Positions 2,578-28,040 of a DNA stretch of 28,567 nucleotides are shown one piece after another. Under the pieces are notes generated by a model that saw only the letters and a program-made list of their open reading frames with translations, had not been told where the DNA came from and did no database searches. Source of the stretch: a virus. The stretch covers positions 1-28,567 of the IMG/VR virus record IMGVR_UViG_3300030329_003787; one strand, given 5' to 3'. A program made the position numbers and the translations under genes. The first letter of the stretch is position 1. Every line of letters begins with the position of its first letter.

Positions 2578-3830
2578 TTGGTACCATAACCTCCATGACT
2601 ATCTTGCATAATTTTATTTGTTCTTAATAAAGTTTCTAATGTTATATCTATTTCTGTTTGAGGATATTTATCTAGAGTATTAATTAAATTATTTCTATCC
2701 ATACCTGGATTTAATAAAATTTGTTCGTATAATACTTCTTCTATATCTCGTTTTAATAGAGAACTATCATCAATTAATTTACTTTTTATAGTAAATTTAT
2801 TTGTTATATCATAAGTACTATCTGTATAAAATTTAGCATCAAATGCTACAGGATTCATTCTCTTATGATTAGTTTTGGTATGTTCAAAAGCTATTTCCAT
2901 TTCATCACTACCTACAGGATGATCGCCTGACATTCGCCAAAGGTTTCTAGCAAAGGCCTCTTTATAAATACTACCAATAGGCTTGTCGTTATTACCTTTA
3001 GCTACATGATCAAGAGCTAAGACAGATGTGTTGTATGATCTAAGTATACCAGAGAATTCTGCTATAGCATCAGCATCATTTATGTTACCTTGCAATGCAC
3101 CACCTACACTATCTACTATAATTAATTTAACATTATTACTATGAACAACATCAGATATTTCATCTTGTACTTTATCTAATGAGCCTCTAACTTTTCTGTA
3201 TTCAAACTCTGCTTGATCAAGATATTCGTTTTGATATTCATCTTTGAATCCTTCTTTAACTGCTACTGTTCGTTCATTAAGATCATCTCTTTCACTTTCC
3301 CAATCAAGATATAATACATTGCCTTGTTCAGGTATAAGACCTTTATGTGCTATACCTGTCTGTACACATAGTGCTGCTGTTACAGCTATATAAGATTTAC
3401 CTATACCTGCTGATCCGTATATCATATTGATTTGATTCTTTCTAACAAAAGGATATAGCACATGACGATCCTCGTATACAATAGGATCGTTACCTATGGT
3501 TGCTGAATCTGATACTTCCCAACTATTAGAATCAACAGTAACAACAAGTTGTTCTATTATAGATTCCCAATTGATATCAAATGTATCTCTAGCTTCTAGT
3601 GCTTTAACTACTGAATTAATAGATTGCTGTGAAAATAAATTCCAGGATCTTTTAATTAAGTGATGTCCTTGTCCTGTCTGCTCGACTCTTTTAGGAGTAT
3701 AACTTATAACAACATGGGCATTGAGTGCTGACTTGCTTTCGTGTACTCTGCTTACTTCAGCTTCAACTCCTTCTCTCTCCCATTCTAAATAAAGTTTACT
3801 ACCAACTTTATCTGTTTTAATATTACTCAT
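2574..3830 (-). CDS. RepA/AAA_25-type ATPase (probable replicative helicase)
   Basis: 418 residues. A P-loop NTPase core begins after a roughly 120-residue N-terminal region: Walker A GSAGIGKS at 139-146, VLYLDWESE at 172-180, Walker B LIIVDS at 236-241 and the sensor-like LALDH at 271-275. This order and wording match the RepA-like hexameric helicase branch of the RecA fold (AAA_25), which unwinds DNA or loads at plasmid and phage origins. The C-terminus (about 350-418) looks like a winged-helix region. The start has AAGGAG upstream and overlaps the coiled-coil gene by 8 bp. It is the only ATP-dependent replication protein seen in the window. Confidence 0.85.
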   Translation of the reverse strand: MSNIKTDKVGSKLYLEWEREGVEAEVSRVHESKSALNAHVVISYTPKRVEQTGQGHHLIKRSWNLFSQQSINSVVKALEARDTFDINWESIIEQLVVTVDSNSWEVSDSATIGNDPIVYEDRHVLYPFVRKNQINMIYGSAGIGKSYIAVTAALCVQTGIAHKGLIPEQGNVLYLDWESERDDLNERTVAVKEGFKDEYQNEYLDQAEFEYRKVRGSLDKVQDEISDVVHSNNVKLIIVDSVGGALQGNINDADAIAEFSGILRSYNTSVLALDHVAKGNNDKPIGSIYKEAFARNLWRMSGDHPVGSDEMEIAFEHTKTNHKRMNPVAFDAKFYTDSTYDITNKFTIKSKLIDDSSLLKRDIEEVLYEQILLNPGMDRNNLINTLDKYPQTEIDITLETLLRTNKIMQDSHGGYGTK

Positions 3831-4336: not shown

Positions 4337-4671
4337 TATTTATTCTCCTTATCTATCTGTTCTAATATTTCTTTTATATCATCACGATTTAAATATTCTT
4401 CAATGATATCTCTTACTACATTGGAATAAGAATGTCTTTTTTTGTTGTATATATTTCGTTCTCCTATTCTGTAATACTTAGCAAGTTTTATTAAAGTTTT
4501 TTTATGAACTAAATTTTTATCTCTGTAATATATTTTTATGGATTCATTTTTATCTTTCCATTTTGGTTTAGTTTCACGAATCAATAATAATTCTGTCTTA
4601 GCTTTTAATTCTTCTTCCTTTTTAACTAAGTCATCTTTAGTTTTATTCCATTTATTAATTAAGTTACTCAT
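4336..4671 (-). CDS. Hypothetical basic protein with possible HTH, 111 aa
   Basis: The N-terminal third is a charged helix (INKWNKTKDDLVKKEEELK). The centre (LVHKKTLIKLAKYYRIGERN, about residues 54-73) resembles a helix-turn-helix in hydrophobic spacing, and the C-terminus is an acidic helix. Starts in the preceding stop codon (TAATG) with AAGGAG upstream. A DNA-binding role is a guess from the HTH-like segment and high pI; no family match. Confidence 0.6.
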   Translation of the reverse strand: MSNLINKWNKTKDDLVKKEEELKAKTELLLIRETKPKWKDKNESIKIYYRDKNLVHKKTLIKLAKYYRIGERNIYNKKRHSYSNVVRDIIEEYLNRDDIKEILEQIDKENK

Positions 4672-11281: not shown

Positions 11282-11307
11282 GCTCACTCCTTTGAATTTT
11301 TTGATAA

Positions 11308-11379
11308 GAACTTTGGGATAAGAAAATTTGATCATATTTTTAGAATAAAAATATGATACAATATTTTCCCCAAATGTTC
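11308..11379 (-). promoter_or_regulatory. Leader hairpin of the leftward operon
   Basis: Nested arms: GAAC/GTTC (11308-11311/11376-11379), TTTGGG/CCCAAA (11312-11317/11369-11374), GAAAAT/ATTTTC (11322-11327/11363-11368) and a perfect 11-bp ATCATATTTTT stem (11331-11341/11347-11357) with a 5-nt loop. It lies 27 bases upstream of the first gene. A weak promoter-like pair on the - strand (TTGTAT at 11361-11356, TATGAT at 11336-11331, spacing 19) overlaps it, so whether it is transcribed or sits at the promoter is unclear. Confidence 0.5.
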
Positions 11380-11663
11380 GTTCAAAAATTCAAGGAGTAG
11401 CATAGCTCCCTGGCTTCGCCTCACGATCTGCGATCTCCTCGTACGACACAAACACTGCCTCTGGCTGACAGCTAGTGCAACTAGCTGTGATGAAATAAAG
11501 CCTTCGGCTTCGATCATCTAATAAGACACAAACACTTTGTCCCCAAGCCTTGGGGCTTGATCATATGAAAGAAACTTCGTTCCATGATACTGTCGTCTAA
11601 TGTAAACACTTTAGATCAGGAATCCTAAAGCTTTTTTTAGAATGGAAATAAAAGAAGGGGGAA
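11380..11663. other. Non-coding region with short hairpins and a direct repeat
   Basis: No ORF is supported. Hairpins include ACAGCTAG/CTAGCTGT (11468-11475/11481-11488), AAGCC-TTC-GGCTT (11498-11510, a C(UUCG)G tetraloop if RNA) within GATGA/TCATC (11489-11493/11514-11518), and CCCCAA/TTGGGG around 11541-11555. The 12-mer GACACAAACACT occurs at 11445 and 11525, with a shorter relative (AAACACTTTAG) near 11604. A stem at 11621-11643 has G-U on the - strand. Confidence 0.4.
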
Positions 11664-11762: not shown

Positions 11763-12125
11763 CTTTCAGATGTAATATCTTCGGAATGAAATCCTTAACA
11801 GGAAGGTTCCGTATTCCTCATCGTTGAATCCTTCGGGTGGCAAAATATGCACATATCGTTACATCAATAGCTTTGAATCCAAAGACCTTTGTCCTCCTAG
11901 ATCAGCAAAACCTGAAGAGTTGGTACTCCCAGGTAGCCTAATCCAATGGAAAGATTTCACATCTGTTAGTCGACTTGCCAAGGATTTGTGCCCCATTTTT
12001 CTTAGCCTATTCGAATTTGCAACCAATAATATTCCTTCATAAAATTGACCACTAAACTTGTGTAGTCAAGGCCTTTGCAAGAGCAAAGACTAAAAGTCTT
12101 CGTGACGGCAACCCATAACACCCCT
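11763..12125. other. Non-coding stretch without a convincing gene
   Basis: An open frame at 11824-12042 lacks a ribosome site and coding character, so I do not call it. Modest hairpins are present: ACCTG..GAGT-TGGT-ACTC..CAGGT (about 11910-11935), CTTTG/CAAAG near 11871-11884, GACCAC/GTG..GTC (12047-12067), CTTTGC-AAGA-GCAAAG (about 12073-12088) and AAGACT/AGTCTT (12086-12100). Less structured than the flanks; no promoter is clear. Confidence 0.4.
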
Positions 12126-12213
12126 ATAAATAGCATTAAATGAAATAATAATAATTGTAGCATATGGCGAAAGTGCCATATGCTTTTAAGCAATTATTAT
12201 TAATGCTATTTAT
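12126..12213 (+). promoter_or_regulatory. Large 5' hairpin abutting the ribosome site of the 12225 gene
   Basis: Outer stem of 14 perfect bp (12126-12139/12200-12213), a middle A/T-rich stem (about 12149-12157/12191-12199) and an inner 10-bp stem AGCATATGGC/GCCATATGCT (12159-12168/12175-12184) with a GAAAGT loop. The Shine-Dalgarno GGAGG begins at 12215, one base after the stem ends, so the ribosome site is free only when the hairpin stops exactly there. Such 5' stem-loops can protect an mRNA end; the close apposition is unusual. Confidence 0.6.
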
Positions 12214-12224
12214 TGGAGGTTTAT

Positions 12225-12584
12225 ATGGGTAGCACTTACACAAAAACTTTTAACAACACAAGTTCAGGGAATTTCATAAAGGAATATTCTTCGGATCAAA
12301 TTGCGAATTGGAAGAAAAATGGAACCCAAATGGGCAAGTCTTGGAAACAGATCCAAAATCTTATCCTTGGCTTAGTTCATACGGGAGTCCCTACTCTTTC
12401 AGAACTTGCTGATCTTTATCAGGAGGAAAAAGCTCTTAAGGTTAAAGCTATGGATTTAAACGATACGGCTTTTGCCACCAGAGTGATTCATTCTATGATG
12501 AGAAATAACGACCCTGTCGTTAAGGAATTAATTCCTGAAGATACTCTGAAAGCTATAGCTAAAGATTTAAAATCTAATAGCTAA
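12225..12584 (+). CDS. Hypothetical protein, 119 aa, isolated among structured elements
   Basis: Start ATG at 12225 with GGAGG six bases upstream (the frame also opens from TTG at 12213, which is less likely). Soluble; N-terminus rich in T, S and N (MGSTYTKTFNNTSSG), then helices with QIANWKKNGTQMGKSWKQIQ, LSELADLYQEEKALKVKAMD and a C-terminal KAIAKDLKSNS. No motif recognised. It has its own leader hairpin and its own intrinsic terminator, so it is a single-gene transcription unit. Basic helices could bind RNA or DNA, but that is speculation. Confidence 0.7.
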   Translation: MGSTYTKTFNNTSSGNFIKEYSSDQIANWKKNGTQMGKSWKQIQNLILGLVHTGVPTLSELADLYQEEKALKVKAMDLNDTAFATRVIHSMMRNNDPVVKELIPEDTLKAIAKDLKSNS

Positions 12585-12665
12585 AGTTAAAAGCAATTGG
12601 GGGGATTAGTCCCCCCAATTTTTTTGTCTTAGCAAATATGCTAAGACAAAATTTAACTTCTAGCT
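12579..12665 (+). terminator. Rho-independent terminator built into a Y-type element
   Basis: AATTGGGGGGA (12595-12605) pairs with TCCCCCCAATT (12610-12620) over a TTAG loop and is followed by a T run (12619-12625): a textbook intrinsic terminator for the gene ending at 12584. Next to it TTTTGTCTTAGC/GCTAAGACAAAA (12622-12633/12640-12651) forms a second hairpin, and both are enclosed by AGCTA-AAGTTAAA (12579-12591) with TTTAACTT-c-TAGCT (12652-12665). The junction has almost no unpaired bases. The stop codon is inside the outer arm. Confidence 0.8.
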
Positions 12666-12666
12666 T

Positions 12667-12755
12667 AGGTGTTTGCCTCTGCAAACTCCTTCGTAAATTT
12701 TGTTTGCCTTGGGGCAAACAAGCGACTAGGGTCGCTTAGAAAATTTACAGGAAGG
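12667..12755. repeat. Hairpin plus clean Y-type element with two tetraloops
   Basis: First AGG-t-GTTTGC-CTCT-GCAAAC-t-CCT (12667-12690). Then outer arms CCTTC-GTAAATTTT (12688-12701) with AAAATTTAC-ag-GAAGG (12740-12755), 14 bp, enclosing GTTTGCC-TTGG-GGCAAAC (12702-12719) and AAGCGAC-TAGG-GTCGCTT (12720-12737). Only two bases are unpaired at the junction. The clearest example of the recurring architecture. Confidence 0.7.
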
Positions 12756-12758
12756 TTT

Positions 12759-12886
12759 CTAACCACAATGCAATGGTACTTTGGTACCATATGCATTGTT
12801 CTACACGAGCAAAAAATTGCTTACGGCAATTTTTTGCGAGTTCGATCGAATTCGCTTTAAGCGAATTCGACATAGAGTGGGGTTAG
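12759..12886. repeat. Multibranch element with three long hairpins
   Basis: Outer CTAACC/GGTTAG (12759-12764/12881-12886) encloses: ACAATGCA+ATGGTAC with GTACCAT+a+TGCATTGT (12765-12799, TTTG loop); GCAAAAAATTGC/GCAATTTTTTGC (12809-12820/12826-12837, 12 bp); and TCGAATTCGCT/AGCGAATTCGA (12846-12856/12860-12870, 11 bp). A four-way version of the same theme. Confidence 0.6.
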
Positions 12887-12895
12887 GGAGGGGTC

Positions 12896-12969
12896 GTAAA
12901 GTAAATATTCTTCTTGCATTTTAGCACAATCTTTGATTGTGCTATGCTAAGAAGAGAATATTTATTTAC
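12896..12969. repeat. Nested hairpin with about 18-bp outer arms
   Basis: Outer arms 12896-12915/12949-12969 (GTAAA..AAATATTCT..TTCTT with one bulge and one mismatch zone), spacers GCATT and TGCT, and a perfect inner TAGCACAATC-TTT-GATTGTGCTA (12922-12944). Same design as 10332-10426: long arm, short spacers, perfect inner hairpin with TTT loop. Confidence 0.6.
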
Positions 12970-12972
12970 GAA

Positions 12973-13090
12973 GGGGGGTGGTCGTATGAGCTTTGCTCAT
13001 ACTCCCTCCACACAGTTGCCCTTGGCAACTAGTGTGATTGTGTGTGTTGCCTTTGCAACACTACACAATGTAGGGTATACAATACCCCCC
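12973..13090. repeat. Cluster of four hairpins, possibly closed by a G6/C6 stem
   Basis: GTATGAGC-TTT-GCTCATAC (12984-13002); CACAC+AGTTGCC-CTT-GGCAACT+a+GTGTG (13009-13036); TTGTGT+GTGTTGC-CTTT-GCAACAC+t+ACACAA (13038-13068); GGGTAT-ACA-ATACCC (13073-13087). A G6 run at 12973-12978 could pair with the C6 run at 13085-13090, competing with the last hairpin. Confidence 0.6.
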
Positions 13091-13093
13091 GTT

Positions 13094-13110
13094 AATTGCC
13101 TTCGGCAATT
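13094..13110. repeat. Hairpin AATTGCC-TTC-GGCAATT
   Basis: Perfect 7-bp stem. If transcribed, the loop is the very stable C(UUCG)G tetraloop. It abuts the next Y element with no spacing. Confidence 0.6.
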
Positions 13111-13227
13111 GAAAGCATACATTATAAAAGCAAATGCCACTAAGCATTTGCATTTGCTTTTATAATCAAATGCTCTTTGCAACAATCGTCAAGCGATTGG
13201 TTGCAAAATTGCATTTGGTATGCTTTC
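13111..13227. repeat. Y-type element with 17-bp and 12-bp internal arms
   Basis: Outer GAAAGCATAC/GTATGCTTTC (13111-13120/13218-13227, 10 bp). Arm 1: ATTATAAAAGCAAATGC (13121-13137) with 13150-13166, 17 perfect bp, 12-nt loop. Arm 2: CAAATGC/GCATTTG (13167-13173/13211-13217) enclosing TTGCAACAATCG with CGATT-g-GTTGCAA (13177-13188/13194-13206). Arm 1 joins the outer stem and arm 2 with no gap. Confidence 0.7.
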
Positions 13228-13229
13228 TG

Positions 13230-13280
13230 TGTTCCTGTCGCCCTGCGACATGGAACAGAACCCCCCACCCGTAAGGGTGG
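13230..13280. repeat. Two adjacent hairpins
   Basis: TGTTCC+TGTCGC-CCT-GCGACA+t+GGAACA (13230-13257) and CCACCC-GTAA-GGGTGG (13265-13280), the latter with a GNRA-type GUAA tetraloop if RNA. Confidence 0.55.
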
Positions 13281-13284
13281 CTTT

Positions 13285-13379
13285 CTTGGAGTAGTACTTG
13301 CCGTAGCCTACAACCATTGCCAATGTATTGCACAGCAAGGTGCAATAATTGAGCAATGTGTTGTGGCTACTACTCCAAG
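13285..13379. repeat. Long branched hairpin with 12-bp base
   Basis: Base CTTGGAGTAGTA (13285-13296) with TACTACTCCAAG (13368-13379). Alternatively a 9-bp base plus GTAGCC/GGCTAC (13303-13308/13365-13370). Inner arms ACAAC/GTTGT (13310-13314/13360-13364), CATTGC/GCAATG (13315-13320/13353-13358) and TTGCAC/GTGCAA (13328-13333/13340-13345). Two alternative bases are possible. Confidence 0.6.
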
Positions 13380-13380
13380 C

Positions 13381-13480
13381 TTACCTGTGCTTGCAAATTG
13401 TCAAGCAATTTGCTTGTGCGAATTAATTGCTTCAGCCCTTGGGGGCTTAGAAGCAATAATTGCACAAACTGCACAGGTAA
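13381..13480. repeat. Y-type element with long second arm
   Basis: Outer TTACCTGTGC/GCACAGGTAA (13381-13390/13471-13480). Arm 1: GCAAATTG/CAATTTGC (13393-13400/13406-13413). Arm 2: TTGTGC (13414-13419), AATT, ATTGCTTC (13426-13433) pair with 13450-13467, with single-base bulges at 13420 and 13425, capped by AGCCC-TTGG-GGGCT (13434-13447). About 23 pairs in arm 2. Confidence 0.7.
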
Positions 13481-13483
13481 AAA

Positions 13484-13684
13484 ACAGTAGCGATTGCATC
13501 GAGCAATCGCAACTGTTGCGAGGGGTTGCAATGCAAGGAGTGGAGGGTGCAACCCCTCGCTGTTACAGTCGCTGTGCGACTGTGCAAGTTTGCAAATAAA
13601 ATGCAACAACCAGGTTGCATTTGATTCACAAACTTGCGAAAGCAATTGCTCAATGCAATTGCGAGGGGGCGATTGCAATCGCCC
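13484..13684. repeat. Run of six hairpins
   Basis: ACAGT+GCGATTGC/GCAATCGC+ACTGT (13484-13516); GCGAGGGGTTGCA/TGCAACCCCTCGC (13518-13530/13548-13560, 13 bp); ACAGTCGC-TGT-GCGACTGT (13565-13583); GCAAGTTTG+AAATGCAAC/GTTGCATTT+CAAACTTGC (13584-13637); GCAATTGC twice (13642-13662); palindrome of 18 nt at 13667-13684. Almost every base belongs to a stem. Confidence 0.6.
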
Positions 13685-13866
13685 TAGGTATCAAAGTGGT
13701 GCGAGTAACTTACCTACTATCTGTGTTGCTTGTTGCCTGTGGCTCGATTGGATGTTGCTTGTATGGGGGTATGGCTTGGGGTTCTTCTTCTTGGCTTGTA
13801 TATACCTATGACAAAATTTTTTTTGCAAAAAAGTGATTCGGTGTAGCTATTATATGCTAAATGATA
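13685..13866. other. Non-coding spacer, less structured
   Basis: A long-range TAGGTAT/ATACCTA pair (13685-13691/13802-13808) could close it; GTTGC recurs several times. Open frames across here are continuations of the cysteine-rich artefact frames of the hairpin block and have no ribosome site. A poor promoter-like pair (TTGCAA 13823, TATTAT 13848, spacing 19) is visible. Confidence 0.3.
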
Positions 13867-13906
13867 TAGCAAATGTTCTCCCTTTTAATTAGGGAGAACA
13901 ATGCTA
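13867..13906 (+). promoter_or_regulatory. Leader hairpin with a repeated anti-arm
   Basis: GTTCTCCCT (13875-13883) pairs with AGGGAGAAC (13891-13899) over a 7-nt loop, extended by TAGCA/TGCTA (13867-13871/13902-13906). The same 9-mer AGGGAGAAC occurs again at 14028-14036, so the left arm has a second possible partner 130 bases downstream, inside the attenuator-like leader. Confidence 0.45.
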
Positions 13907-13919
13907 ATTGGTAGATGTT

Positions 13920-14103
13920 ATTCCCTTCCCCTTTGCAAATTATACTGCAATAGCAAAAAAATAGTCAAGCGAATAAAAAAGAAAAAAGAAAGTATATAAA
14001 GAAAAAAGAAAGTAGGTAGGGGTAGCAAGGGAGAACCAATACTACCCCATGATAGATAAAGGGGAGGAAGGGAATTATAAAAATTTAGACCTCCCCTTTT
14101 TTC
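13920..14103 (+). promoter_or_regulatory. Attenuator-like leader with mutually exclusive stems and a terminator
   Basis: Terminator: AAAGGGGAGG (14058-14067) with CCTCCCCTTT (14090-14099) and T run to 14102. Competing partner: ATTCCCTTCC+CCTTT (13920-13934) with the same AAAGG..GGAAGGGAAT segment (14058-14075). Between them lie GGGGTAG/CTACCCC (14019-14025/14042-14048) and a 17-bp direct repeat of purine-rich sequence (13978-13994 and 13998-14014). It precedes the terminase operon; the long-range pair would prevent the terminator. No ligand domain is recognised. Confidence 0.5.
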
Positions 14104-14111
14104 AAGGAGAT

Positions 14112-14143
14112 AGTTGACTATAGAAGTCAACTTCAGTTATTAT
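14112..14143 (+). promoter_or_regulatory. Sigma70-like promoter overlapped by an inverted repeat
   Basis: TTGACT (14114-14119) and TATTAT (14138-14143) are spaced by 18 bp. The perfect 8-bp inverted repeat AGTTGACT-n5-AGTCAACT (14112-14119/14125-14132) covers the -35 box and part of the spacer, as an operator would. Placement just after the terminator and 24 bases before the small terminase start makes it a good candidate promoter of the head genes. Confidence 0.5.
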
Positions 14144-14166
14144 ATTTTATAGAGGAGTGCAGGTCA

Positions 14167-14604
14167 ATGGCAACGGAAGCATTTAGAAACAGGCAGAAAG
14201 CTAGATTTTTAAAAAAGTTTAAAGAGATTAAAACTATATACAGTACTTGTGAGGCTATAGGTCTTCCAAGACGGACAGTATATCTGTGGTTGAAGGAAGA
14301 TTCTGAATTTAAAGCAGACTTTGAAGATATAAGACTAGGAGTTGGCGAAGAATTAGAGAGTATAGCTTTTCAATTAGTAAACAAGATGGCTGAAAAGGAA
14401 GATTATTCCAAGCCTGTGTTATTAATTACTATGTTAAATGCTAACTTACCTGGTAAATACAGATCTACAGACACTACTTCTGAAGATTCCAAGCAATTAA
14501 TGGAGGATTTCAGAAAGATGGCTGCCAAGAAAAAGAGAAAAGCTCCCAAATCCAAGGTAGTTAAAGAAGCAGAGGACATAATTAATGACTCAGACAACAA
14601 ATGA
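14167..14604 (+). CDS. Terminase small subunit (HTH type)
   Basis: 145 residues with AGAGGAG upstream. N-terminal basic region then a helix-turn-helix (about residues 22-45: TIYSTCEAIGLPRRTVYLWL), followed by SEFKADFEDIRLGVGEELES, the helical pattern of phage small terminases that bind the packaging site. The C-terminus is lysine-rich (KKKRKAPKSK) and acidic at the very end. The end overlaps the large terminase start by 20 bp. The family call rests on HTH type and synteny. Confidence 0.8.
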   Translation: MATEAFRNRQKARFLKKFKEIKTIYSTCEAIGLPRRTVYLWLKEDSEFKADFEDIRLGVGEELESIAFQLVNKMAEKEDYSKPVLLITMLNANLPGKYRSTDTTSEDSKQLMEDFRKMAAKKKRKAPKSKVVKEAEDIINDSDNK

Positions 14605-15925
14605 GCTAACAGATTTCCTTTATGAGAAGGTAGGGTTTGATCCTACTGATGAACAGAGAGTAATATTGGACTCTGATAAAAGATTTACACTTGTAGCAGG
14701 CGGGGAACAGGCAGGAAAAAGCATGATCGCTAGTAAATTCCTACTAAAAAAGACATTTGAAACAGAAAATCCAGGATTATATTGGCTAGTTGCTGCAGAT
14801 TACGGCAGAACTAGGGCAGAATTTGAATATTTAATAGAAGATTTTGGTAAGCTAGGCTTATTAAAGAAGGCATCTAAGAGAGTAGACCCAGGTAGAATTG
14901 AATTAGTAGACGGAACTGTTATTGAAACTAAATCAGCTAAGGATCCTAGAACTCTAGCTATGAGAGCACCCGATGGAATCATAGGTTGTGAGGCTAGTCA
15001 GCTAGATTTAGAAAGTTATTACAGGATAAGAGGTAGGTGTGCACCTAAAGCAGCATGGATGTTTCTAGCAGGAACATTTGAGGGTAGCCTTGGTTGGTAC
15101 CCTTCGTTATTTCAGGCATGGAAGTACGGAGATAAAGACGAGAAATCTTTTTCTTTACCTTCTTATACTAATAAACACTTATATCCAGGAGGTAAAAATG
15201 ATCCAGAGATACAAAAACTCAAGAATGAGGCTAGTGATGATTTCTTTATGGAAAGGATTGAAGGTATTCCTTCTCCACCTACGGGAATCGTATTCCAGGA
15301 ATTCAGAAGTGATAGACATATATCAGAAAAAGCTGTCTATGTACCAGGGGAACCAGTCCACTTGTGGATCGACCCAGGTTATGCAGGCGGCTATGCAATC
15401 GAAGCGGTACAGATCAGCGATGATCAAGTTAGACTTATCGATGAAGTCTACGAAAAGTCCCTCATTACAGAGGAAATGATTAATATTTGTCAGAATAGAG
15501 AGTGGTGGAGTGATGTACAGTTTGGAGTAATTGATGTAGCAGGGTATCAGCATCAGGCTATGGCAGCTCCTGCTGAAATTTGGTTAAATGAAACAGGATT
15601 ATATCTAGATTCTGAGAAAGTTAAGATTAATGATGGTACAGAAAAATTAAAATCTATGTTAAAATTAGCTCCAAATGGCGAGCCTAGATTAATAATTAAC
15701 CCTAAATGTAAGGGAATCTTATCAGAGTTTGGTGCAGCTCCAAATCCATTTAATGGACAGACACTTGTGTACAAGTGGAAGACAGATAGAGATGGAAACA
15801 TAGTTGGCAATCAACCTGAAGATAAGTATAATCATGGTGTTAAAGCCGTAATCTATGGTTTAATAAACCATTTTGGTTATGCACATATAGAAAATAGAAG
15901 CACAATTCGTGTGAAGAGGTGGTAA
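14585..15925 (+). CDS. Terminase large subunit (packaging ATPase/nuclease)
   Basis: 446 residues. ATPase: Walker A GGEQAGKS (39-46), Walker B-like GIIGCEASQ (131-139, catalytic E136) and coupling motif LAGTF (161-165). RNase H-like nuclease: WIDPGYAGG (261-269, D263), IDEVYE (285-290) and VIDVAG (315-320, D317), then the C-terminal DKYNHGVKAVIYGL. These are the acidic metal ligands of large terminases. It cleaves concatemers and translocates DNA into procapsids, working with the small subunit and portal. Ends in a TAATG overlap with the portal gene. Confidence 0.93.
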   Translation: MTQTTNELTDFLYEKVGFDPTDEQRVILDSDKRFTLVAGGEQAGKSMIASKFLLKKTFETENPGLYWLVAADYGRTRAEFEYLIEDFGKLGLLKKASKRVDPGRIELVDGTVIETKSAKDPRTLAMRAPDGIIGCEASQLDLESYYRIRGRCAPKAAWMFLAGTFEGSLGWYPSLFQAWKYGDKDEKSFSLPSYTNKHLYPGGKNDPEIQKLKNEASDDFFMERIEGIPSPPTGIVFQEFRSDRHISEKAVYVPGEPVHLWIDPGYAGGYAIEAVQISDDQVRLIDEVYEKSLITEEMINICQNREWWSDVQFGVIDVAGYQHQAMAAPAEIWLNETGLYLDSEKVKINDGTEKLKSMLKLAPNGEPRLIINPKCKGILSEFGAAPNPFNGQTLVYKWKTDRDGNIVGNQPEDKYNHGVKAVIYGLINHFGYAHIENRSTIRVKRW

Positions 15926-20305: not shown

Positions 20306-20660
20306 TTATTTTGGTACATTCACAGATTTTTCTTATAGCCCTGAAGTATCTTCTATGCTATCAAGAGATTTTTTAGAATCTACTCCTACAGCAGCTTATT
20401 ATAGTTCGCCTGTAGGTACAGGGTTTGCCAAACAATCTCCTAATAGACAAAGATTTTTTCAACAAAGTTTCCAAGATATTTATAACCAATATCTTGGAGA
20501 GCTTGGGGCACAAGCTAGACAAGGACAAATATCTCCTTTAAGGTTCTCAGATTATTTAGAAAGAGATCCGTTTACTGAAAGATATTCAGGTTTAACTCCA
20601 ATGCAAAAAGGAGTTTACAGTCAACAGTTTTCACCATCAACTAGATTTATTTATTACTAA
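20295..20660 (+). CDS. Hypothetical structural-type protein, 121 aa
   Basis: Overlaps the preceding gene by 11 bp and shares its stop with the next start (TAATG). Aromatic and Q/R/S-rich (FSYSPEVSSMLSRDFLES, RQRFFQQSFQDIYNQYLGEL), with a tyrosine-ended tail RFIYY. No motif recognised. Translational coupling to the 1886-residue protein suggests they act together in the virion. Confidence 0.65.
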   Translation: MADNYFGTFTDFSYSPEVSSMLSRDFLESTPTAAYYSSPVGTGFAKQSPNRQRFFQQSFQDIYNQYLGELGAQARQGQISPLRFSDYLERDPFTERYSGLTPMQKGVYSQQFSPSTRFIYY

Positions 20661-23600
20661 TGCCACATGAACCTGGACATAATCCGTTTTATTCTTTTCA
20701 AAAAGGAGGAACCCCTCAATCAATTCCTTCTACTAGTAAACTATTACCTCCTCCACAACCTACTACTTCAATAGAACAAGTAGCTCAAGCTGACCCACCA
20801 AGAAAAGAAAGAGGAGGATTCTTTGATCCGATAATTTCTAAAGAAACTGTCGAAGAAAGAATACCTGGTTTTGCAGGAACTGCATTAGGAACTATAGCAG
20901 AATATACTACTAGTCCATTTGATTTAGCTTTAATACCCACATGGGCTGTTGGAGGGCCTGCGATATCTACAGGATTAAAAGGGGCTAGGGTTTTATCTAA
21001 ATTTCCCAAAGGATTAAAATGGTTCCCTAAAGTATTAGGATCACTTTTTGATCCGTTTCCTGGAACTGTTACTTCCTTGCCTTTAAGATTAATAGCAGAA
21101 ACAGGAGCTACTGCAGGAGGTGGCTTTTTAGGAAAAGAAGCTGCAGAATACGGAGAAGATTTAGGAGGATTACCTGGAGCTATAATAGGAGGATTAGCAG
21201 GTGGATTAGCAGGAGGAACTGCAGGTGGATTAGGAGCTGTAGGAGGAATGAAAGCAATAGCTGGATCTGTAGCAAGATTAAGAGGAAAAGATTCTCTTAA
21301 TCCTAGAGATCATGCAGGGTTATATACAATGATGGAATCAGATAAGTTTGTTCCTATTCGTAACACAACAGAAGAAGATCTTAAAAAGAAAATTAGAGAA
21401 GTAGTACAAAAAGAAACAGCTAGACAATTTGAAATAGCAAAACAAACAGGAGAAGAAATAACTGTACCTGGATTTGGAGCTATAGAAGTTGAAACTGATT
21501 TGCCATTTTGGAATAAAACTGTAGTTGGAAAAAGACAACTTTATTACGAACCTCCTCAATGGATTAAAGAAAATCTTCCTGAATTAGTTAGACCTACAAT
21601 AAAAGATCAATTAATGCCACTACTTCAAAAAACTGATACAGCATCTGCTTTAAACATTAGAAATATATCTACTGAAGACAGACAAGATTTACAACAAGAA
21701 GCTTTAAAGAAAATAACAAAAGAACGACAAGATTTAACTAATCGATTAAACACGACAGGAGTAATGATAGTAAATCCTGATGGCTCTACTCGACAATCTT
21801 TTAATAGCCAAGATATACAAGCAGAAGTAATACGACAAAAGGGAAGTGAAGATACTGATTTTAGAAAAGCAATTGAAAGAGCAGAGGAAGAATTAAAGTT
21901 AAATGAACAAAAAGCAAGATCTTTATTGTCACAACTTTATCAAGACCCACATGAACTTGAAATAAATACTGTAGATGATTTAGATAATTTAATTATGCCT
22001 GATGTAGATACATCTAAAATTGTATCTGATATAGAAGTTGCTACTGCCGAAACAGCTTTAAGTAAACTAGGAAGAACTGTAGATAAATTACCTAGACCAT
22101 TGTCTAATGTTTTAGGAAGGATGCATAGATTAGGAAATCCTATGTCTAAAGCTAGAACATTAATGGAAAAATTAGGAGCAGCTAAAAATATAGGAGAAAA
22201 AAATGCAAGTATTGCAGCAATGAAACTATATGAATGGACAGGATTATGGAAGATGGATGAAGTATTTGGTAAGACAGATCATAATGTATGGACTAAAAAC
22301 GAAGCAGGAGAAAGAGTCGGTAACATTATGGTAGGAAAACTAGAAGATGGAGGAGAATTAAAAGAAGCTGCTAAAGCAGCAGGCATACATGATGCTGAAA
22401 ACTTAAGTGTATTACGAATACTTGAAGAAACAAGACCACTAGAAGGCAGATGGTTTTCTTACAAGAAAGGAAAAATAATTGATAAAGCAAGAGATTACAG
22501 AAAGATTTTAACTGATGATCAAAAAGAAATGTTAAGACGGGTTGCTTTAGCAAATGAGTATTCACAAAAACAACTTAGAAAGTTTGGTATACGAACAGGG
22601 CAAAACTTTACAGCTAAGTCAGAATTAGAACAACAAGATATATTTGCATGGACACAAAGTATGTTAGATGAAGCTGCAGAAGAAATGAGACTTAATCCTG
22701 ATATAAGTGATGCAGAGAAACAACTTTTTGATCAAGATGTTAACTATGCTAACAGAAGAGTTATCATGCATAAAAAAACAAATGACATAGCTATTATAGG
22801 AAAAGAAGATAGAGTATGGAAACTTGGTAAAAAAATTGGAGCTGAATACTCAAGACAATTTAACAGGATTTCTTCAGCAGAAGCGGAAGGCTATGTTTAT
22901 ATGCCACTTGATAGTGCTTTTATAATTGGAATGACATCTAAACATAAAAGAGCTTTGTATCAATCTATGGCAAAGTATTTAAAAGAGTCTATAGAAAAAG
23001 GCGATTATAAAGAATACAAAGATATAGAAGTTATAAGACTTGAAGACAGAAGAAATGAATTATTATTTAGAGAATTGCAAAGAGAAAGACCTGGATTAAC
23101 TGATAAAAAAATTGCAGAGCTAATGGCAAGATCTATGGATGGAGATTTAGATGCTAGGCCTGATCAAGTTATATTAGCAGACAATGCTAAAAGAGTTCTT
23201 CCTAAAATTAGAATCATAAGAAAAAAACTAGAAGCAGGAGAAAGCATTAGAGGATTAGCAGGAGAAGATTTAGATGTTATAAAACAAATATTTACTCTTT
23301 ATCCTGCCAGGTATTTCCAAGAAAACGGAATAGATATTTCTGATTTGTTTGATGATAAGAATGGATTAAAAAGATTACAAGGATTAAAAGAAAATAATTT
23401 TGAAAACAAAAATACTAATGAATCTTTTAAAGAGATATTAGAAAAATTAAATTTAGAAAATGAAGAAGAAGCAGAGTTTGTTATAACACTTGCATGGGCT
23501 AAAAGAATTATGGGAGATAACTTTGTTTCAAATGGTGGAAGAGTTAAAGATGTTGACTTAGATAAAATAAAAGAAGTTATTGATGGAACAAGAATAGGAA

Positions 23601-26320
23601 CAAAAGAAGATGCTCAGGAATTAAGAAAGTTAATTGATGAATATAAAGATTCTGTATCAGAAACAGGAAGAACTAGGCAAGCAGAATTACAATCTCAAAT
23701 AGATGAGTTGGCTCAAATGAGAGAAGCTTTTGACTACGAAGATGAAAGAAACTTTGGCTTGTTAAGTCAGATGAATGAGTTACAAGCACGATATGATGAG
23801 ATTAGTAGATTGCAATTTATATACAAAAGATATGGTAGTAACAAAAGATTAGATTTTATAGATGAAGATTTCTTAACAGGATTAAAATATAAAAAAGATG
23901 GATTTGATGCTGAGTATAATAGTAATGTATTTGCAAGAGAACAAGCAAACTTACTTAACTTAGAAGGAGTTGATGAAACAACATTAGTACAAGCAGAAGA
24001 TATTCTTAATTCTTATAATGAATTTATAGATGGAGCTTTAATAAAAAGCAGACAAAAAATTAATTGGGATGCTGATCCTGAAAGACTTGATAAAGCATTA
24101 GGCAAACTTGAAACTAGGCAATACGAAACATTGCTTGGAAGAACTGAAACAATCATTAATGAAAGGGGACAAAAAGAAACAAGAAAGATTCCTGGTGTTG
24201 AAGAAATAATATTAAACCAGGAAATCAGAGCTAAGAAAAACTTAGATGATGTTATATTTTTAGACCAACCTGAATTAGATGAGTTGATTTTTAGAACTGC
24301 TAGAGATGCTGAACAAGGAGCTCACGAAAGTCTTTTAAAAATGAGAAGAGATTTTGAAGCTATTTTTGAACAAGTAAATCCTAATGAAATGAGCAAATGG
24401 TGGACAGGAGTAAATGCTATTCAAAGAATGGTAGCTTTAGGTTTTGATGCTTCTATATTTATGATTCAGTTATTCCCTGTAATGATGAACCACCCAAGAA
24501 TAATGCCTAAAGTATTTAAAGGATATTTTAATGCTTTGCTAAGAACATGGAGAGATCCTGACGCAGGAAGACAAATGATGTTTCAGTATAGAAATATGCC
24601 TGAAAACCAAGCAATACTTAGAAAGTATGGTAGGTGGTTATTAATGTCTGAAGACAATGAAGTGTTTGATTTGCTAGCTACAGGAAAAATGGGAGAAGTT
24701 TTCCAACAACAAGTACAGGATCCAGGTAGATTAGGAGATGTTGCGAGAGCAGGACAAAGATTTGGAGGAGGATTTAAAAATGCTTTTGATCATGTACTTG
24801 ATATAGCAGGAATAGAAATAGCAAAAGCAATGGATGTAGTGGTAGATGGAGCTACTCCTGAAATAATGGAGAAACAAATTAAAGCTGTTGCAGATTATGC
24901 AAACGGAATGAGAGGATTATTTAGTTCACAGGCAGCAGGGGTTAGTGCTGTGCAAAGATATAAAGAAGCACAATGGATGTTGGCTGCAAGATACAGAAGA
25001 GCAGTAGCTTCTCTTTATGCTATGGCTTTAAGTCCTGATCCTACAAGAAGTTATCTTGCACAAAAGGCTATGATTAATTTAGCTACAGGAACTATAATGA
25101 CATCTATAGTATTACAAATGATGGGCTCATATATAGATGGAGATTCTGAAGAAGAAACATATGACAAACTAGAAAAACTTATAGATCCTACAAGTGGAGG
25201 ATTTTTAATGTTTCAAGCAGGAGGACAAAGTATAGGTATTGGATCCAAGTTTGTTTCTGATTCTAAGTTTATAGGTAAAGCTCTTACCTTTATGTGGAAA
25301 AGAGGTACAGGACAAGATGTAAAAGAATGGCAAGATTTTCTTTCTATGGAAAGAACAAACCCTGGATTACAATGGGTTAGAGCTCAAATGGCTTATGCTC
25401 CTACTACAGCTTGGGGAATCTTTTCAGGAAGAGATTATATAGGAGAACCTGTATTTAGACCAGGGGAAAGTAATTTTGATTCAATTACTAACTTTGTTCA
25501 ACCTTTAAGTGAAGCTGCAATTCCTATATGGATGTCTTCTACTTTCTTTGAAGGAGGTGGTAGAGATGGTGATTGGGCAGGACAAACATTAAGAGGATTT
25601 TCAGAATTGTATGGAATGAGAACTCATCCACAAAGTACTAGTGAAATATTAAGGTTAGCTTCTTATGATTATATGGATATGCCTTTCGATGAAATGGAAC
25701 CTTTTCAAAAAGATTTGTTAAGACATATGTTAACAGATGACTTAACAAAACTTCAGGAAGAACAAGTTAAACAAGGAGCAAATGATTTTGCACTTTACTT
25801 TAATAATATAAAAAGAATAGAAGAAGAATATCAGCAAGGATTAATTGAATTAACTCAATTATATCCTGCCACTAAAGAAGGAAATAGAAATATGTATACT
25901 GCTTATAGGGGATTAAAAAGCTTTATGCGAGGACAAAAAACAGAAAGAGGATATGATATAGAGTTTGAAGATGAAAGCTTAAAAGATAGTAATCCTAACA
26001 AGAGAGCATTAGCACAATATTGGGCACTATATGACAAAGCTACAATCCCTGGTACTCAAGTAATAGATTGGGATTTGTGGCAAAATGAATATGATAAACT
26101 TATGCAAACACTCACTTTAGAACAGCAAGTTACTGTAGCTAGAAACTCTCATGATCTTCCTATGCCTGCTGTATTTATGCAAAGACTAGCACAAGTAGGA
26201 AAAAAAGAATACACAAGAATTGTAATAGCACAAAAGTTAAGAGAAGATTATTGGAGATCTATGGGCAGAGATGATTTGGCTGACAAAATGAGAAGCTATC
26301 ATCTTATGTTAGAGGATTGA
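20660..26320 (+). CDS. Giant virion/ejection-type protein with glycine-zipper segment, 1886 aa
   Basis: The largest gene, uninterrupted. P-rich N-terminus, then FAGTALGTIAEYTTSPFDLAL and a glycine-zipper membrane-like segment (about residues 169-197, G-A-G-L repeats). The long middle is charged and coiled (about 300-1200). The C-terminal third carries hydrophobic helices (ASIFMIQLFPVMM near 1263-1276; LATGTIMTSIVLQMMGSY near 1473-1490) and R/W-rich segments. This resembles large internal or ejection proteins and large polyvalent proteins of phages, which enter the host with DNA. No polymerase or lysozyme motif is seen. Role inferred from size, hydrophobic segments and position before scaffold and capsid. 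Confidence 0.6.
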   Translation: MPHEPGHNPFYSFQKGGTPQSIPSTSKLLPPPQPTTSIEQVAQADPPRKERGGFFDPIISKETVEERIPGFAGTALGTIAEYTTSPFDLALIPTWAVGGPAISTGLKGARVLSKFPKGLKWFPKVLGSLFDPFPGTVTSLPLRLIAETGATAGGGFLGKEAAEYGEDLGGLPGAIIGGLAGGLAGGTAGGLGAVGGMKAIAGSVARLRGKDSLNPRDHAGLYTMMESDKFVPIRNTTEEDLKKKIREVVQKETARQFEIAKQTGEEITVPGFGAIEVETDLPFWNKTVVGKRQLYYEPPQWIKENLPELVRPTIKDQLMPLLQKTDTASALNIRNISTEDRQDLQQEALKKITKERQDLTNRLNTTGVMIVNPDGSTRQSFNSQDIQAEVIRQKGSEDTDFRKAIERAEEELKLNEQKARSLLSQLYQDPHELEINTVDDLDNLIMPDVDTSKIVSDIEVATAETALSKLGRTVDKLPRPLSNVLGRMHRLGNPMSKARTLMEKLGAAKNIGEKNASIAAMKLYEWTGLWKMDEVFGKTDHNVWTKNEAGERVGNIMVGKLEDGGELKEAAKAAGIHDAENLSVLRILEETRPLEGRWFSYKKGKIIDKARDYRKILTDDQKEMLRRVALANEYSQKQLRKFGIRTGQNFTAKSELEQQDIFAWTQSMLDEAAEEMRLNPDISDAEKQLFDQDVNYANRRVIMHKKTNDIAIIGKEDRVWKLGKKIGAEYSRQFNRISSAEAEGYVYMPLDSAFIIGMTSKHKRALYQSMAKYLKESIEKGDYKEYKDIEVIRLEDRRNELLFRELQRERPGLTDKKIAELMARSMDGDLDARPDQVILADNAKRVLPKIRIIRKKLEAGESIRGLAGEDLDVIKQIFTLYPARYFQENGIDISDLFDDKNGLKRLQGLKENNFENKNTNESFKEILEKLNLENEEEAEFVITLAWAKRIMGDNFVSNGGRVKDVDLDKIKEVIDGTRIGTKEDAQELRKLIDEYKDSVSETGRTRQAELQSQIDELAQMREAFDYEDERNFGLLSQMNELQARYDEISRLQFIYKRYGSNKRLDFIDEDFLTGLKYKKDGFDAEYNSNVFAREQANLLNLEGVDETTLVQAEDILNSYNEFIDGALIKSRQKINWDADPERLDKALGKLETRQYETLLGRTETIINERGQKETRKIPGVEEIILNQEIRAKKNLDDVIFLDQPELDELIFRTARDAEQGAHESLLKMRRDFEAIFEQVNPNEMSKWWTGVNAIQRMVALGFDASIFMIQLFPVMMNHPRIMPKVFKGYFNALLRTWRDPDAGRQMMFQYRNMPENQAILRKYGRWLLMSEDNEVFDLLATGKMGEVFQQQVQDPGRLGDVARAGQRFGGGFKNAFDHVLDIAGIEIAKAMDVVVDGATPEIMEKQIKAVADYANGMRGLFSSQAAGVSAVQRYKEAQWMLAARYRRAVASLYAMALSPDPTRSYLAQKAMINLATGTIMTSIVLQMMGSYIDGDSEEETYDKLEKLIDPTSGGFLMFQAGGQSIGIGSKFVSDSKFIGKALTFMWKRGTGQDVKEWQDFLSMERTNPGLQWVRAQMAYAPTTAWGIFSGRDYIGEPVFRPGESNFDSITNFVQPLSEAAIPIWMSSTFFEGGGRDGDWAGQTLRGFSELYGMRTHPQSTSEILRLASYDYMDMPFDEMEPFQKDLLRHMLTDDLTKLQEEQVKQGANDFALYFNNIKRIEEEYQQGLIELTQLYPATKEGNRNMYTAYRGLKSFMRGQKTERGYDIEFEDESLKDSNPNKRALAQYWALYDKATIPGTQVIDWDLWQNEYDKLMQTLTLEQQVTVARNSHDLPMPAVFMQRLAQVGKKEYTRIVIAQKLREDYWRSMGRDDLADKMRSYHLMLED

Positions 26321-27164: not shown

Positions 27165-28040
27165 ATGGCACAGACAGCGACAACAGGTAATCTAGAAAAT
27201 GCGAGTAAGATAATTATCGCAGCAGCTAGGTATACTGAAGAACACAATGCCCCTGCTATGGCTTTGATTGAGCAATTTACTTTGCCAAAAGGAGCTAAAC
27301 AGGTAACAGTACCTAAAGTAGGGCAAATGACAGTATCTGATTTAACAGATGGTCAAGACATTGTTGACGAAGAAGAGATCGGAATGACAACTGTTGATCT
27401 TACTGCAAGTGAAGTAGGAGCAAAAGTTATCTTAACCGATAAACTAGTTCGTGAACAACAAAACAATGTATTCACAATAATTGGTAAACAGTTAGGTGAT
27501 GCAATGGCAAGAAAGAAAGATACAGATGTTCACTCATTGTATAGTTCTTTAAATGGTGGTACCACTCTTGGTGCTGCAACTAAATTTATGAAAGCAAGTA
27601 ATGTACAGGGAGCAATCACTTATGCAAAAGCTAATAAATTTGGTAGCCAAATTTACATTTTACATCATCCAAACTCAGTAGCTTATCTTTCTAAAGAAGC
27701 TGCAACAGTTGCTTCATCAGGTTCAGCAGAACTATCAAGTGGTTGGTCTGCAGATCTCTTGAAAGACTTCTGGAGTGGACTAAGACCTATGAATGGTGTA
27801 TCTATATTTGAAGATGGTAACTTAACAGTTGATTCTGAAGATGATGCGACAGGTGTTATTGCTGATAAAACAGCTATGGCAGTTCTTAAGTCTGTAGACA
27901 CTAGAACAGAGAGGCAGAGAGATGCAAGTTTGAGAGCCACAGAGGTGGTTATTACTTCAGACTATGGTGTTTTTGAGTTAGATGATTCTAGAGGTGCAGG
28001 ACTTATATTTGATGCTGCAGCTTTGGCAACTAATAACTAA
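27165..28040 (+). CDS. Major capsid protein (HK97-fold type)
   Basis: 291 residues, AAGGAG at normal spacing. Starts with a helical N-arm (MAQTATTGNLENASKIIIAA), followed by TLPKGAKQVTVPKVGQMTVS and DLTDGQDIVDEEEIGMTTVDLTA split by turns. The end shows the characteristic VVITSDYGVFELDDSRGAGLIFDA. Strand-turn patterns and its location after the scaffold support a capsid subunit of the HK97 fold, of a phage group with short proteins. Hexamers and pentamers build the head. Confidence 0.82.
   Translation: MAQTATTGNLENASKIIIAAARYTEEHNAPAMALIEQFTLPKGAKQVTVPKVGQMTVSDLTDGQDIVDEEEIGMTTVDLTASEVGAKVILTDKLVREQQNNVFTIIGKQLGDAMARKKDTDVHSLYSSLNGGTTLGAATKFMKASNVQGAITYAKANKFGSQIYILHHPNSVAYLSKEAATVASSGSAELSSGWSADLLKDFWSGLRPMNGVSIFEDGNLTVDSEDDATGVIADKTAMAVLKSVDTRTERQRDASLRATEVVITSDYGVFELDDSRGAGLIFDAAALATNN

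Follow-up and report, generated by a model that had tools for sequence, protein, structure and literature searches.

Genome setting of the array

The window analysed here is a 28.6-kb virus record, taken as a whole. It contains a block of non-coding DNA that is packed with hairpins, referred to below as the array. Genes to the left of it are minus-strand early genes, and those to the right are plus-strand packaging and structural genes; the array lies at the junction between the two gene sets in an uncultured phage family. Non-coding DNA separates a small gene of 123 amino acids from terS, and the hairpin block makes up the first 1.1 kb of this DNA. A scan with the 123-aa protein as query gave no relatives. 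The remainder of the gap includes a non-coding stretch (13765-14166) that precedes terS, is conserved family-wide and contains the hairpin at 13874-13900; it is probably a late control region. The features of the locus are listed in Table 1.

Table 1. Genes, hairpins and insertion or deletion sites at the array locus, in window coordinates.
Feature	Position	Strand	Remarks
Early gene products to the left: AAA-domain helicase/primase-like protein, ParB-like protein, DUF932 protein, RusA-like resolvase		-	
Leader hairpin of the 123-aa gene, ribosome-binding site at stem base	12123..12213	+	direct reading; similar leaders recur in relatives
Upstream gene, 123 aa	12213..12584	+	no family found
Whole DNA hairpin array, non-coding	12579..13690	none	
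Y unit 1	12579..12665		folds as outer stem over two branches
Y unit 2	12688..12755		outer stem GTAAATTTT...AAAATTTAC over two hairpins
Three hairpins	12773..12870		12773-12790, 12809-12837, 12846-12870
Site of extra DNA in L008	12883..12886		1.15 kb of extra hairpins and two small ORFs, flanked by GGGG runs
Long imperfect hairpin	12898..12970		
Four-branch junction	12979..13084		short hairpins
Y unit 3	13111..13227		
Site of a further Y unit	13281..13286		GTAAATGTC...GACATTTAC, carried by L008 and L017, missing in the window
Long hairpin	13285..13379		perfect 12-nt outer arms
Y unit 4	13381..13480		
Hairpin run	13484..13684		
Hairpin outside the array	13874..13900		family-conserved; 9-nt loop 13883-13891 = TTTTAATTA
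terS, terminase small subunit	14167..14604	+	
terL, terminase large subunit	14585..15925	+	query for finding relatives
Capsid-like protein	at 27165	+	

Density and form of the hairpins

The array holds about 27 short hairpins, plus several outer stems that each close over two of them. The minimum free energy (MFE) of the whole block is -546 kcal/mol for 1112 nt, with a z of about -20 against dinucleotide shuffles. Windows of 120 nt average -45 kcal/mol inside the block and -19 kcal/mol outside, and values on the minus strand are approximately equal to those on the plus strand. A string-based measure, which uses no energy model, agrees with the folding result: perfect hairpin arms of at least 7 bp make up 36% of 12585-13690, compared with 2.0% in shuffles (maximum 6.7%), 1-4% in genes and 0-14% in most other non-coding gaps. 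The exception among the gaps is a 118-nt leader (11283-11400) that reaches 26%, its own shuffles reaching 36%. Since hairpins are not comparably dense in the other non-coding gaps of the genome, something appears to make this locus special. By 8-bp arms, the best 500 nt score 0.38 in the window, as against a top value of 0.17 among 76 other viral contigs (one copy of a relative was excluded). MFE, shuffles and perfect-arm cover together bear out the dense block of stem-loops that a preliminary description had placed at 12579-13684, both in its coordinates and in its structures, and energies lie far below those of dinucleotide-shuffled controls on both strands alike.

The same description saw a recurring Y architecture, in which an outer stem encloses two hairpins. 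All four units named there fold in this way (z of -8 to -10 against dinucleotide shuffles), and none of 200 shuffles folds equally well. The Y plan is common in the block, but it is one of several forms and not a general rule, as simple hairpins also occur in the fold, along with junctions of 4, 5 or more branches. The statement that primary sequences differ between units needs a similar qualification: the units share almost no sequence, but TTGC/GCAA reaches a density of 55 per kb in the block (12585-13690) versus 9 elsewhere in the genome, an approximately six-fold enrichment, and given this the sequences of the units are not fully unrelated. The enrichment is also found in the homologous arrays of L006, L008 and L017, and is absent from the independent array of L084 (see below).

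Hairpin loops are mostly 3-4 nt long. The loop-closing pair is C-G in 18 of the 27 tips and G-C in none, although a strict count of closing pairs is only moderately biased (C-G to G-C 65:34, versus 106:78 in control contigs). The first hairpin of Y unit 1 (12595-12620) is G/C-rich and followed by TTTTTTT, and looks like an intrinsic terminator of the upstream plus-strand gene.

Strand symmetry and base pairing

Only 1.8% (plus strand) and 1.6% (minus strand) of the predicted pairs in the array are G-U, as against 8-16% both in shuffles and in the genome's own genes. In an RNA under selection, G-U pairs are normally tolerated on one strand. Here the two strands fold with about equal stability and pairing is almost purely Watson-Crick, which points to palindromic DNA rather than a strand-specific RNA; the strand-specific stability with G-U tolerance expected of a structured RNA is not seen. 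In the longer array of L008, G-U pairs are commoner on the plus strand (26 vs 10). Mismatches in Watson-Crick-only stems comprise three G-T and three A-C, too few to test strand bias. No Rfam family matched the array, and searches of tRNAs, GenBank phages and plasmids gave nothing similar to it.

Distribution among related viruses

A TerL search yielded 80 related viral loci. Homologues of the array, which are few in the collection searched, are found in L006-L010 and L017. The L008 array is longer than that of the window by 1.15 kb and 0.2 kb, and one hairpin tip of Y unit 2 is identical in L017. In many relatives at 70-94% TerL identity the array is slight or missing. By contrast, L084, at about 51% TerL identity, carries a comparable array of unrelated sequence at the same position, and this second array is also present in L226 at 79% identity. 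Recurrence in L084 combined with patchy occurrence in close relatives indicates that such a block recurs at one position and is quickly gained and lost.

Patterns specific to the array had matches in the close relatives already identified, at the same site, and nowhere else. Four further loci (L070, L071, L076, L077) were considered as arrays and rejected, as their low energies track high G+C and they have few perfect arms or weak blocks only. A 15-nt loop motif, AATTGTCAAGCAATT, was rejected as a marker; it is present in more than 100 viral contigs, which by our estimate is about chance for the size of the collection, and none of these contigs has such a block save a copy of relative L007.

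TerL relatives (37-57% identity) occur in seven genomes of a GTDB-based collection, all of them Chloroflexota MAGs. This suggests that the host of the phage family is to be sought among marine Chloroflexota, possibly of SAR202 type.

Sequence change within the array

L007-L010 are near-identical to one another and were compared over up to 1.85 kb before terL, of which L007 and L009 cover part only; contigs are assemblies and were read as assembled sequence. Four events separate them in this region. Two loops, of 3 and 9 nt, are exactly inverted, one A-T pair is exchanged for T-A, and one base of a loop is substituted. In the stretch of terL compared, the changes are scattered single substitutions only. 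The loop at 13573-13575 is TGT in the window and its exact inversion, ACA, in L010, and the loop at 13883-13891 is exactly inverted from TTTTAATTA to TAATTAAAA in L007. An A-T pair is replaced by T-A at 13667-13684 between near-identical relatives. The loop at 13051-13054 is CTTT in the window and, again exactly inverted, AAAG in L008 and L010. Family-wide, there are six exact inversions with at least three differences and flanking stems of at least 4 bp, five of them with stems of 8-11 bp, and no reverse-only change with flanking stems of at least 4 bp. Four complement-class cases with stems, representing two distinct swaps (TGT/ACA and TAAT/ATTA), can also be read as inversions.

Arms change jointly, with Watson-Crick pairs kept. 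Double changes of this kind, observed versus expected, number 5 vs 0.34, 2 vs 0.05, 8 vs 1.5, 6 vs 1.6 and 10 vs 3.2 in five of six compared segments; the sixth (segment b of the window and L008) has none and is uninformative. In this test the structure is predicted from one of the two compared sequences, which favours pairing in that one, and the permutation control preserves base make-up. Arms co-vary beyond independence in the window's array and in that of L084. The stem around 12773-12790 takes up most of the double changes between the window and L008. Many paired changes exchange A-T and G-C pairs and could also pass via G-U intermediates. The compensatory stem changes whose lack in related phages would, by the preliminary description, have refuted it are present, but they do not prove an RNA, since template switching yields them as well.

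Stems diverge by 2.8%, unpaired positions by 16% and the neighbouring spacer by about 5.5%. The total divergence of the array is thus ordinary, but shifted into the loops. Whole modules may be missing in one genome, and in the other they are bounded by the short direct repeats CTCC, CCCC or GGGG. Paralogues within an array are few: hairpins with GCAAATGCC in L008, and hairpins with a ATACAGTC loop in L017. The L017 hairpins at 4395, 4462 and 4704 have nearly the same loop (ATACAGTC or ATGCAGTC) on different stems, flanked by A- and T-runs.

Origin of the array

Template switching is reported to lead to arm homogenisation and spacer inversion (PMC8604942), and to be able to create and maintain hairpins (PMC8794818). 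Exact spacer inversion between intact arms is observed here in close relatives. As exact loop inversion and arm homogenisation are two known products of template switching, we read the locus as shaped by it: with a probability of roughly 60%, it is a hypervariable non-coding array of DNA hairpins, made and kept palindromic by template switching during replication. A polymerase on single-stranded DNA would fold back or switch strand inside an inverted repeat. The event would either overwrite one arm with a copy of the other, so that the stem stays perfect, or copy the spacer in reverse, which inverts the loop. Y and nested shapes would result when new hairpins are inserted next to or within existing ones, and modules could be lost by slippage between the short direct repeats at the bases of hairpins. 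The array would persist either because the spot is free of coding constraint and the hairpins are tolerated, or because it serves as a structural DNA site with little regard to sequence. As a counterpoint, a search for DNA polymerase A, polymerase B and reverse transcriptase, any of which might make the process unusually active, found none in seven family records, which may be incomplete.

As a counterpoint to the array being a mutational by-product, the stems diverge about half as much as the flanking spacer, which hints at selection beyond this. Restriction to a single locus, slow stems, the preference for C-G closing pairs and the recurrence in L084 all argue that the place is special, while many relatives lack an array, which speaks against an essential role. 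Hence the array may be tolerated, or it may be used as a cis-acting DNA site. A region of the latter kind, such as a replication origin, a site of single-strand initiation or a packaging site, in which structure is selected and sequence is free, is a realistic minority alternative. It would suit the position at the switch in gene orientation, adjoining terS and terL, the return of an array at this position in L084 with unrelated sequence, and the stems that change less than their flanks. The short loops and biased closing pairs look as if physical hairpins matter, and the phage encodes a RusA-like Holliday-junction resolvase. However, the relatives with little or no array show that such a site is not essential family-wide, and no binding-site logic was found. 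GC skew was set aside as a sign of an origin, as it follows gene direction and carries no independent information. More tentatively still, the two readings might be combined in a dedicated locus where hairpins are actively made, flipped and swapped, its structure being functional and its sequence free; this could be, for example, a replication or packaging region that is recognised through its hairpins and supplied by continuing template switching.

The three ideas put forward in the preliminary description were a giant multi-domain RNA, mobile palindromic elements and a DNA cruciform, and it is the last of these, in the form of DNA hairpins, that fits best. The very low folding energy and the paired changes would suit a structured non-coding RNA of large size, or a series of RNA domains, transcribed from the plus strand with stems under selection at the RNA level. 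We consider this unlikely in view of the strand-symmetric pairing with almost no G-U and the lack of an Rfam match. Loops that flip, modules that come and go, the likely terminator at the start of the array and the different sequence of the independent L084 array also tell against it. Even less probable is a family of mobile palindromes (REP/BIME-like, or resembling mitochondrial double hairpins) inserting into one another. Discrete gain and loss of modules at fixed sites, the few paralogues in L008 and L017 and the TTGC/GCAA enrichment speak for such a family, but the units share almost no sequence beyond a few similarities in two or three copies, dispersed copies were not found elsewhere in the genome, and those modules of the array that were tested are confined to close relatives at the same site. 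Palindromes might confuse assemblers, and amplified viral metagenomes might hold chimeras; nevertheless, an artefact of this kind (inverted chimeras, or an ambiguous path through palindromes) is scarcely credible, as the same hairpins occur in the same place in contigs from several separately numbered metagenomes, and in diverged form in L017, and the inverted loops have arms of just 8-11 bp, which reads and usual k-mers span.

Comparison with known systems

The changes seen here resemble template-switch mutations at quasipalindromes and short inverted repeats, reported from E. coli, yeast, primates and rRNA genes (PMC7202029, PMC8604942, PMC7954356, PMC8794818), in which arms are homogenised, spacers exactly inverted and perfect hairpins created. 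Those events affect scattered single sites, whereas the phage locus consists almost wholly of hairpins over 1-2.5 kb. Small loop inversions between close relatives at short inverted repeats are likewise described for chloroplast hairpins (e.g. PMC6824564), which are isolated and intergenic in the plastid, in contrast to the dense phage array. Mitochondrial genomes of sponges (PMC2800124), Volvox (PMC2670323) and Lobosphaera (PMC4524435) have non-coding DNA packed with palindromes, but there similar families are spread genome-wide, while the units here differ in sequence and occupy one locus. Bacterial REP/BIME elements are also extragenic palindromes; REPs are high-copy, sequence-defined and have a tagged end (PMC3733652), and no high-copy shared sequence was seen in the array. 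Further marks of the REP/BIME class would be a GTAG/CGTC tag and a RAYT-type transposase. Phage leader hairpins and intrinsic terminators have counterparts in the first hairpin of Y unit 1 and in the leaders of small genes nearby, yet this type accounts for only one or two of the approximately 27 hairpins. The template-switch process is already known; for a phage locus as dense and recurrent as this one, the open-access literature searched yielded no description.

The locus offers a naturally occurring hot spot, where a comparison of near-identical viruses reveals how hairpins are born, invert their loops, change in both arms and are lost. It also serves as a warning that compensatory changes by themselves are no proof of a structured RNA. 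Should the locus prove functional, it would represent a control region of the phage that owes its identity to the shape of the DNA and not to its sequence.

Other features of the genome and its relatives

An ORF of 1886 amino acids (20660-26320) lies between the packaging and capsid genes; Pfam gave no match to it, and PHROGs gave only a non-significant one (E 0.086). Long leader hairpins with a ribosome-binding site at the stem base precede small genes; these leaders lie at 11283-11400 and 12123-12213 in the window, at 3163 and 3713 in L008 and at 2986 and 3871 in L017. A leader-hairpin core, AACACAGC...GCTGTGTT, recurs in L008 and L017. These leaders may control translation. At 3041-3414 in L008 a small ORF (ATG at about 3238) lies within a long imperfect inverted repeat, and the sequence 5' of this ORF is a degenerate reverse complement of its ribosome-binding site and first codons.
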